A DNA stretch of 64,000 nucleotides from Actinokineospora sp. NBRC 105648. GTDB lineage: Bacteria; Actinomycetota; Actinomycetes; Mycobacteriales; Pseudonocardiaceae. The notes below the pieces were generated by a model. The model saw nothing but the letters and a program-made list of their open reading frames with translations, did not search any database and was not told the origin of the DNA. Position 1 is the stretch's first letter, and every line of letters starts with the position of its first letter. The DNA is taken from positions 1-64,000 of the forward strand of contig NZ_BSTR01000026.1 in NCBI RefSeq assembly GCF_030269645.1. The letters are read 5' to 3'. Shown here in pieces: positions 123-61,598 of the stretch. A program made the position numbers and the translations under genes.

Positions 123-160
123 CTAGGGGCCCCGCGCGAAGTGAGTTCACTAGATCGAGC
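123..160 (+). repeat. Palindromic element, half copy A
   Basis: Only the right arm of the 139-nt palindromic element is present, from CTAGGGGCCCC to ATCGAGC. The missing left arm is replaced by the transposase tail and an 18-bp joint. Its right flank (CTCGGGCAG about 20 bp on) matches the flank of full copy C at 49213, so this was once a complete copy oriented like C and E. Confidence 0.8.
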
Positions 161-255: not shown

Positions 256-395
256 GCTCGATTGGCTGGACTGCCTTCGCGCGGGGCCCCTAGGCGACCG
301 CGTGGGGACAAAGCGTGGGGAGAAGGGCATCCCCACCACTGAGGCAAGTTTAGCGGTCGCCTCCCCCCACACGAAGGCAGTCCACCCAATCGAGC
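256..395 (-). repeat. Palindromic element, copy B
   Basis: A 140-nt element begins and ends with GCTCGAT/ATCGAGC. Outer arms of 31 nt pair with three imperfections (two G-U and one G-G when read on the minus strand). The inner stem GGCGACCGC/GCGGTCGCC is perfect. On the minus strand the conserved interior reads CGCTAAACTTG and later GTGGTGGGGATGCCC. The minus-strand 5' flank contains GCTGGTACGCAA and CCCGTTACG, shared with copies C, D and E. It forms an inverted pair with half copy A, separated by 95 bp. It lies between the transposase tail and the convergent MHYT gene. No other gene is seen in 105-535. Confidence 0.85.
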
Positions 396-8819: not shown

Positions 8820-26267
<17,448 letters not shown>

Positions 26268-26284
26268 CGGGAGCGGCGGCGGCG

Positions 26285-36175
<9,891 letters not shown>

Positions 36176-48798: not shown

Positions 48799-48992
48799 CG
48801 TTGCACGTGGCAGTGGACCGGGACGTGTGCATCAGCGCGGGCAGATGCCTGGCCACAGCCCCGGACGTCTTCGACCAGGACGACGAGGAAGGCCTGGCCC
48901 TGGTGGTCCGCCAGCCGACCGGTGACGAGGAAAAGCTGGTCCGCAAGGCCGAATACCTGTGCCCGGCAGCAGCAATCCATCTGTCCAACTAG
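48795..48992 (+). CDS. abyW: [3Fe-4S] ferredoxin (AbyW type)
   Basis: A 65-aa ferredoxin of the type that serves actinomycete P450s. The cluster ligands are Cys12 and Cys18 in CISAGRC and the Cys in LCPAAAI near the C-terminus; only three cysteines are placed for cluster binding, hence [3Fe-4S]. Its GTG start overlaps the P450 stop by four bases (GTGA), so the pair is almost certainly translated together. No ferredoxin reductase is in the window. Confidence 0.9.
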   Translation: MTLHVAVDRDVCISAGRCLATAPDVFDQDDEEGLALVVRQPTGDEEKLVRKAEYLCPAAAIHLSN

Positions 48993-49021
48993 GACAGTAA
49001 GAAGCTAGAGCACGCACGCAA

Positions 49022-49055
49022 GAGGAGGGGCGGACCACCCGGTCCGCCCCTCCTC
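49022..49055 (+). terminator. Strong hairpin terminator after the ferredoxin gene
   Basis: A perfect 15-bp inverted repeat (GAGGAGGGGCGGACC and its complement) with a 4-nt loop lies 29 bp after the ferredoxin stop. No T run follows, as is usual in high-GC actinomycetes. The rest of 48993-49212 contains no gene. Confidence 0.85.
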
Positions 49056-49212
49056 ACGCCACCACCACCCAACCGCAGCGGACAAGTCAACCCCGCTGGC
49101 ACACAACAAGATCCCGTCCCCGAGCTGGCACCGCAGCGGAAGGGCGCCCCCGCCGCCCATCAAACCGTAGCGGTTAGGCCGACCCCGCTGGTACGCAAGT
49201 CCCGTTACGGAT

Positions 49213-49351
49213 GCTCGATCTGGTGGACTTGCTTCGTGTGGGGGGAGAGTGCCGCTAAACTTGCCGTGGGTGGGGATGCCCTTACCCTGCCCTTTTCTCT
49301 CCACCGCGGTGCTCTAGGGGCCCCACACGAAGCGAGTTCACTAGATCGAGC
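49213..49351 (+). repeat. Palindromic element, copy C
   Basis: A 139-nt element with 31-nt outer arms. On the plus strand all three non-Watson-Crick positions of the outer stem are G-U type, and both in the inner stem (GAGTGCCGC with GCGGTGCTC) are also G-U. The interior reads CGCTAAACTTG, then GTGGGGATGCCCTT. The left flank holds CCGCTGGTACGCAA and CCCGTTACG; the right flank holds CTCGGGCAG. Together with copy D, 92 bp away and inverted, it forms a unit of nearly 400 bp that is closely matched at 123-430. Confidence 0.88.
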
Positions 49352-49443
49352 CCCCATCTTTTCCTCGGGCAGCCCCAACGATGAGCGGCCCGTGGCGTCG
49401 ACCCCACGACGCCACCCGAAACGACGAGCCCAAGTAAGAGCAG

Positions 49444-49581
49444 GCTCGATTGGCTGGACTGCCTTCGCGTGGGGCCCCTAGGCGACCGCGTGGGGAAAAG
49501 CGTGGGGAGAAGGGCATCCCCACCACAGGTCAAGTTTAGCGGTCGCCTCCCCCCACACGAAGGCAGTCCACCCAATCGAGC
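49444..49581 (-). repeat. Palindromic element, copy D
   Basis: A 138-nt element almost identical to copy B. Read on the minus strand its outer stem has one G-U and one G-G position; the inner stem GGCGACCGC/GCGGTCGCC is perfect. Its minus-strand 5' flank again has GCTGGTACGCAA and CCCGTTACG. It lies 115 bp from the stop of the convergent aldo/keto reductase gene. Confidence 0.88.
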
Positions 49582-49696
49582 ACAAACGTAACGGGTCTTG
49601 CGTACCAGCGGGCTCGGCTTCTAAAGACTGAAGAACCGAGAACTGAGAGAGATGAAGAACTGAGAGCCAGGAGCCAGGAGTCAGAGGTCCGGTTCC

Positions 49697-57672: not shown

Positions 57673-57815
57673 GCTCGATGGGGTGGTGTGGCTTTGTTTG
57701 GGGAGAAAAGAGGCGCTAGCCTGGCCCAGGCGGTGGGTATCCCTTTCCCACCCGCTCTACCCACTGCGCCTCTTTTCTTAGGGGCCCCAAACAAAGCCAC
57801 ACCACCCCATCGAGC
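57673..57815 (+). repeat. Palindromic element, copy F
   Basis: A 143-nt element with perfect 31-bp outer arms (57673-57703 with 57785-57815) and a perfect 13-bp inner stem, AGAAAAGAGGCGC with GCGCCTCTTTTCT. The arm sequences differ widely from copies B-E, yet the layout, the ends GCTCGAT/ATCGAGC, the asymmetric TTAGGGG before CCCC and the interior CGCTAGCCTGG plus GGTGGGTATCCC are kept. Confidence 0.88.
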
Positions 57816-57937: not shown

Positions 57938-58080
57938 GCTCGATGCGGTGGATTGGCTTTGTTCGGGGCCCCTAAGAAAAGAGGCGCCGTGGGTAGAGCG
58001 GGTGGGAAAGGGATCACCCACGCCGGAACCAGGCTAGCGCCTCTTTTCTCCCCGAACAAAGCCAATCCACCGCATCGAGC
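57938..58080 (-). repeat. Palindromic element, copy G
   Basis: A 143-nt element, inverted relative to F, with perfect 31-bp outer arms (57938-57968 with 58050-58080) and a perfect AAGAAAAGAGGCGC-type inner stem. Against F, several arm positions changed on both sides so that pairing is preserved. On the minus strand the interior reads CGCTAGCCTGG and GTGGGTGATCCC. It lies between the divergent SARP and methyltransferase genes. Confidence 0.88.
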
Positions 58081-61458: not shown

Positions 61459-61598
61459 GCTCGATTGGGTGGACTGCCTTCGTGTGGGGGGAGAGCACCG
61501 CTAAACTTGACCGGTGGTGGGGATGCCCTTCACCCGCCCTTTTTTCACCACCGCGGTGCTCTAGGGGCCCCACGCGAAGGCAGTCCGGCCAATCGAGC
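61459..61598 (+). repeat. Palindromic element, copy E (single copy)
   Basis: A 140-nt element with 31-nt arms showing two U-G and one G-G position, a perfect inner stem GAGCACCGC/GCGGTGCTC and a third stem GGTGGTG/CACCACC. The left flank carries GCTGGTACGCAA and CCCGTTACG. Before that lies an AT-rich stretch (61372-61421) with two short palindromes, ATTCTCTAGAAT and AATCTCTTAGATT. A TTTCAAT...CTCTA string there is also found in the corresponding flank of copy B and could be promoter-like. The gap 61356-61657 holds no gene. Confidence 0.88.

Follow-up and report, generated by a model that had tools for sequence, protein, structure and literature searches.

The gene family DUF222 (PF02720) is known from the REP13E12 (13E12) family of mycobacteria, which the cited portions of two sources present as a dispersed repeat without defined function (PMC13061034, PMC10589994). 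The same gene family sits between hairpins in five of the genera analysed here, whereas the hairpin copies of the window (the whole stretch of 64,000 nucleotides under analysis) are without DUF222. Among the titles and opening abstracts surveyed in the open-licence literature, none described terminal hairpins for REP13E12, and none on DUF222, HNH or palindromic repeats described the present hairpins or tied DUF222 to them. The hairpins share with REP and BIME sequences a high copy number, a palindromic form, a place outside genes and a frequent arrangement in inverted pairs; they differ in size, being 137–146 nt long where REPs are mostly 20–50 nt, as given in the cited portion of PMC12306157. 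A REP/RAYT system (REPtron) was rejected because the palindrome is too long and the own genome, that of Actinokineospora sp. NBRC 105648 (8.43 Mb, 149 contigs), gave no match to the Y1 (HUH) transposase RAYT (PF01797); of the 16 Actinokineospora genomes, two had such a match.

MITEs are likewise short, non-coding inverted-repeat elements of many copies, and terminal inverted repeats are present in the copies studied here; the hairpins differ from MITEs in their covarying inner structure and in a wobble bias on one strand, and no parent IS with the same ends was found in the flanks collected. The omegaRNA (HEARO) of IscB offers a further likeness, a mobile HNH nuclease gene beside a structured element, but DUF222-HNH proteins resemble IscB in the HNH part only, and their units have inverted hairpins on both sides. 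Three scanned DUF222 proteins gave no Pfam match to RuvC, and the IscB model scored far below its cut-off. The preliminary description had thought of an undescribed non-coding RNA family or a mobile hairpin element. In Rfam no match reached the gathering cut-off and six fell far below theirs, so that a known Rfam family was rejected; close relatives in plasmids or phages were rejected as well, there being no match to the hairpins in the plasmid and phage collections.

Hairpin copies of the window and their fold

The six full copies first read from the letters of the window lie where they had been placed, and model R1 found no further full copy within it. The strand of each copy was defined by the TAGGGG in its 3' arm; a weaker R1 match occurs on the opposite strand at each copy because each is a palindrome. 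Copy C (49213..49351, + strand; R1 145 bits; MFE -91.5 kcal/mol, z -9.0) has an outer stem of 49213-49243 paired with 49321-49351, a GG at 49244-49245, an inner stem of 49246-49255 paired with 49306-49315, an AGGGG bulge at 49316-49320, and conserved apical parts CGCTAAACTTG and GGTGGGGATGCCCTT. Its inverted partner, copy E (49444..49581, - strand; R1 148.4 bits; z -12.4), is separated from it by a 92-bp spacer (49352..49443) that was aligned across 36 such composites. The left outer flank (49187..49212, + strand), which reads GCTGGTACGCAAG-TCCCGTTACGGAT and is conserved among composites, is an inverted relative of the right outer flank (49582..49609, - strand), whose reverse complement reads GCTGGTACGCAAG..CCCGTTACGTTTGT and which is followed by an AT/purine-rich low-complexity tail. 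Beyond E-type hairpins this tail (here 49610-49690) differs from copy to copy; upstream of C-type hairpins (here 48980-49212) small palindromic units (CCGCAGCGG..CCCCGCTGG) are strung together in a degenerate array.

Copy B, of E type (256..395, - strand; R1 145.9 bits; z -9.5), shares the composite plan with a half copy at 123..160 (+ strand), which on inspection of its letters is, as had been proposed, half of a hairpin, namely the right half of a C-type hairpin without the left half. The open frame before the half copy is a possible candidate transposase tail or IS remnant, judged from the letters alone; a 33-aa stretch of it gave no match in plasmids. Copies F (57673..57815, + strand; R1 139.1 bits; z -12.3) and G (57938..58080, - strand; R1 141.5 bits; z -12.7) are of FG type, F having a TAGGGG bulge and a 13-bp inner stem, and converge across a 122-bp spacer. 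Copy D (61459..61598, + strand; R1 153.2 bits; z -10.1) is solo, with convergent genes on either side. Elsewhere in the window very large open frames lie in 8820-36175; a domain scan of the 3303-aa frame at 26264-36175 showed a modular polyketide synthase (KS, AT, KR, DH, zinc-dehydrogenase and carrier domains).

The plan of the element held as originally drawn: GCTCGAT/ATCGAGC ends, a 31-bp outer stem, a TAGGGG on one side only, and an inner stem, measured here at 10–13 bp. The outer stem terminates in GGGG/CCCC, and the asymmetry consists of GG or nothing on the 5' side against AGGGG or TAGGGG on the 3' side. Past the inner stem stands a conserved stretch (CGCTAAACTTG or CGCTAGCCTGG), then an apical hairpin and last a pyrimidine run. 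In other Actinokineospora species the stem measured 30–32 bp in 53 of 54 elements (running 6 bp longer in two of these), and the remaining element is degraded, pairing over only 10 bp by a simple pairing rule. Elements of other genera often have a shorter outer stem, and their side bulge is mostly 4–6 nt.

The predicted strand of the six window copies folded at energies 9.0 to 12.7 SD below shuffled sequence, none of 200 shuffles being as stable for any copy; a chance hairpin was therefore rejected. The opposite strand was also stable (5.5 to 12.2 SD below shuffles), and for copies F and G slightly more so than the predicted strand.

Covariation and wobble pairing

We examined the pairing of the outer stem in 120 own-genome copies (91 of B-E type and 29 of F-G type) chosen by exact GCTCGAT..ATCGAGC ends, for which reason the outermost 7 pairs are fixed in this set. 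The claim, made from a few copies, that the non-Watson-Crick pairs of one strand are G-U and not A-C held at this scale, with 191 G-T cells against 2 A-C, besides 3486 Watson-Crick, 40 G-G and 1 T-C. As the copies are related, these cells are not independent; tallied by position, 17 positions in the own genome carried G-T and 2 carried A-C. The 54 elements of other species gave 1542 Watson-Crick, 93 G-T, 3 A-C and 10 other cells.

Covariation, the check that had been proposed, was found: over 65 distinct sequences of the genus, 34 of 40 pairs showed two-sided change and 98.6% of cells were paired, with a covariation score of 0.613 as compared with 0.186 for shuffled and 0.05–0.08 for slid controls, in an alignment fitted to the structure, which favours the score. 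Sequences of other genera gave 96.5% of cells paired, two-sided change at 39 of 40 pairs and a score of 0.603; 23 of 43 were mismatched nine pairs away from the bulge, and wobble was rarer than in Actinokineospora. Covariation and wobble bias together support selection on a single-stranded fold of one strand. The folded molecule may be RNA or single-stranded DNA; we tentatively infer RNA, against which stand the stability of the opposite strand and the rarer wobble of other genera.

The preliminary description had itself named strand-biased C-to-T mutation as a rival source of the G-U bias, and this rival survived only in part. The flanks showed no consistent per-site excess of C>T over G>A on the predicted strand, and a further source of G-T pairs in the outer stem is A/G change in the 3' arm, which C-to-T mutation on that strand would not give; strand-biased C-to-T is therefore insufficient, and as sole cause of the wobble bias it was rejected. 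The excess that stayed is in the apical parts, with C/T changes in 102 cells and G/A changes in 18 (summed over three groups). This may represent mutation bias, or it may represent tolerance of G-U by the apical stems.

Copy number and genomic sites

The description of a six-copy family was right as to the reality of the family and far too small as to its extent, which is genome-wide: R1 found at least 150 places in the own genome (best of 5317 candidates). DNA searches with three of the copies scored 40 candidates each out of 367, 361 and 187 first-look candidates, and the collected set numbers 135 distinct full copies, each with exact ends and with its flanks. R1 matches occurred in 16 of 16 Actinokineospora genomes, at 1 to at least 150 per genome, the lowest being one weak match (E 5e-4) in G006, where R2 found none. 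A sequence pattern drawn from the copies matched A. diospyrosa, A. terrae, A. globicatena and A. auranticolor, among the matches listed. Hairpin sequences are species-specific across the genus. The proposed spread as repeated hairpins is supported.

Convergent composites of B-E type, absent from the first reading of the window, numbered 36 among the loci collected; each consists of two hairpins with their 3' sides facing across an 87–102 bp spacer, with matching inverted outer flanks and low-complexity tails. Among the F-G copies collected we saw four pairs that converge and one that is mixed. Six contigs of the own assembly (C28, C35, C36, C39, C51, C83) start or end inside a hairpin, and in C48 other DNA interrupts a copy, which hints that the assembly broke at hairpins or that they received insertions.

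Predicted genes were overlapped by none of 175 hairpin copies, and 97 of the 148 copies with both neighbours called lay between convergent genes (the F/G pair of the window is an exception, with divergent genes on either side). Across 93 Actinokineospora loci, for the most part 8 kb long, 42 of the gaps with a hairpin were convergent, 24 were same-direction and 2 were divergent, as compared with 15, 99 and 80 of the other gaps; convergent gaps thus made up 42 of 68 hairpin-bearing and 15 of 194 other gaps (Fisher p 1.8e-18), with genes called by a simple codon-composition rule and hairpins found by pattern, such that some "other" gaps may contain missed ones. At three intergenic sites among the loci sampled (L071/L176, L111/L206 and L187/L213) both flanks matched between two species, each with a hairpin, and the hairpin orientation was opposite in two of these three pairs, a sample too small to generalise from.

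This strong bias towards convergent gaps is what would be expected of a structured RNA or 3'-end element that benefits the host and is kept by selection, perhaps as a transcript end, a stabiliser or a barrier between convergent genes, with DUF222 units as mere carriers. Sequence variation agrees with such a role in that the hairpins vary less (pi 0.01–0.11) than their own spacer (0.19) and than most of the outer flanks (0.25–0.66 beyond 30 bp, 0.16 and 0.10 in the nearest 30 bp), while the stems persist under heavy sequence change; in C-type copies, moreover, TCTTTT stands a few bases past the stem. However, in the copies read there is no T run directly at the stem, the feature of an intrinsic terminator, and the wobble is one-sided, yet a bidirectional terminator needs no strand preference. 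Both hairpin orientations were about equal in same-direction contexts (23 "--" and 21 "++"), and the matches range from one weak one to at least 150 within a single genus. On this balance we regard a host element as unlikely.

Hairpin-DUF222-HNH units and the possible origin of the window copies

Across the family, 41 of 297 Pseudonocardiaceae genomes searched with model R2 contained the fold; they fall in 11 of the 46 genera sampled, Actinokineospora included. The best 10 candidates per genome were scored in this family search and the best 8, with strict filters, in a search of the phylum; since so few were scored per genome, absence in either search is weak, and one genome outside the matching set (G022) carries hairpins. 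Model R3 matched long palindromes in a distant actinobacterium outside Pseudonocardiaceae (G395; L332, L333, L335). These were rejected as family members; both strands score about equally and the two examined adjoin ordinary genes, so that they are probably an unrelated repeat.

In three genomes of other genera (G071, G157, G045) some hairpins are paired about 1–2 kb apart with their 3' sides outward, and the gene between them encodes DUF222 (PF02720, E 2e-20 to 2e-36). Pfam called an HNH domain in one of three scanned DUF222 proteins, and the HNH cysteines and histidines are kept in at least 90% of 24 aligned proteins. In a profile comparison with solved structures, DUF222-HNH came closest to IscB, within its HNH part (about 55 residues, E 9e-6); NCBIfam and PADLOC gave weak HNH matches or none. 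Hairpins stand on both sides of a DUF222-HNH gene at 24 loci in five other genera (g8, g20, g28, g31, g35), and 15 of these loci belong to G071. With six further loci that have a hairpin upstream only, all 54 hairpins at these 30 loci point outward, most of the loci having been chosen for looking like hairpin pairs; at the nine not so chosen (L241, L249, L258, L267, L298, L303, L305, L308, L322) 12 of 12 point outward. A DUF222 frame was present in 27 of 27 other-genus stretches, in two pieces at L285; these stretches represent 22 distinct loci, the majority of them selected for being hairpin pairs.

Starting from hairpins, a DUF222 gene was found at 8 of 35 other-genus loci, three of the eight from G071 and two from G034. 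Starting from DUF222, a hairpin was found at 4 of the 22 best Pseudonocardiaceae loci and at none of 29 loci of other families; DUF222-HNH itself is present in 90 of the 118 genomes that were sampled from the class. Among the matches listed for G045, DUF222 genes lay beside 7 of 19 hairpins, six of which are on the strand of the gene and 256–277 bp past the domain match, while one is upstream and inverted relative to the gene.

In an alignment of about 1.69 kb, fourteen units of G071 are alike inside and unlike in their outer flanks, with no target duplication evident by eye. The 15 DUF222 genes from this genome (L262-L283) are all intact and open over 380 codons, at mean dS 0.32, dN 0.026 and dN/dS 0.08. 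The dS between copies indicates that there was no recent burst; either purifying selection or gene conversion maintains each protein.

Within Actinokineospora the gene is nearly missing. DUF222 occurs in only 2 of 16 genomes, with a hairpin at none of the three genes; the single DUF222 gene of the own genome has no hairpin in the 7.5 kb of sequence examined. No DUF222 frame was found in the 211 Actinokineospora hairpin loci, nor in the window, and no recurrent mobility gene or transposase in the flanks of the copies. The window composites are, moreover, convergent (+ then -), the opposite of DUF222 units (- gene +). From this gap it follows that the hairpins outlived their enzyme, or that another factor moves them, or that they have a host function.

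The explanation that we favour, with only moderate confidence as to mechanism because of the DUF222 gap, is that the window copies may well be solo, non-autonomous members of a mobile hairpin family whose gene-bearing form carries DUF222-HNH. The family would spread as mobile DNA across several Pseudonocardiaceae genera, its gene-bearing form having a DUF222-HNH gene with one hairpin on each side, 3' arm outward. The HNH protein, or a successor, would recognise the strand of one orientation in folded, single-stranded form, as RNA or as single-stranded DNA at a nick; putative contacts are the AGGGG/TAGGGG bulge, the unpaired stretch TAARCTYG and the length of the stem, which hardly varies within Actinokineospora. 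Copies would preferentially insert or survive downstream of genes, and most of all where two genes converge. The lower variation of the hairpins than of their own spacer also speaks for this reading. Movement or processing of the hairpins by DUF222-HNH, and descent of the Actinokineospora copies from DUF222-HNH units, are presumed from the association in other genera.

An ordinary DDE-type IS could in principle have left a family of MITEs or IS ends, the stems being terminal inverted repeats and one transposase reading both ends. The inverted-repeat architecture, the dispersed copies and the species-specific ends accord with this. The inner stem covaries too, though, the one-sided bulge is conserved, and the one-strand bias of G-T over A-C is unexpected for recognition of duplex ends; in addition, no transposase recurs near the copies, and no target duplication was evident by eye in the flanks of the 120 own copies, the ends of which are not sharply defined. 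We consider such an origin improbable. A homing-type element, in which DUF222-HNH cuts hairpin sites and the gene is copied by repair between hairpins of an older, separate family, draws on the HNH residues, on the bracketing of the gene by hairpins and on the abundance of hairpins without the gene, but two random hairpins fail to explain the outward orientation at both ends, which makes it a still less probable account. Arm-to-arm correction is known to act on long near-perfect palindromes, and template switching in replication could thereby keep arms complementary without selection and yield the many two-sided changes seen inside one genome, but it would erase the G-T pairs that persist in such excess over A-C and would leave the conservation across genera of the one-sided AGGGG bulge and the unpaired apical letters unaccounted for, and is thus very improbable.

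With the mobile hairpin family preferred, the evidence points to undescribed mobile elements that combine a copy number of REP type, a long covarying fold and a link to DUF222-HNH. A bolder and rather doubtful extension is that DUF222-HNH proteins are the nucleases of a new class of mobile element, recognising or guided by their own terminal hairpin RNA, with the Actinokineospora hairpins as genome-wide satellite RNAs. The DUF222 repeat regions of M. tuberculosis are said, in the part of the source cited, to lack a defined function (PMC13061034). If DUF222-HNH recognises the hairpins, an orphan family would gain a testable substrate.
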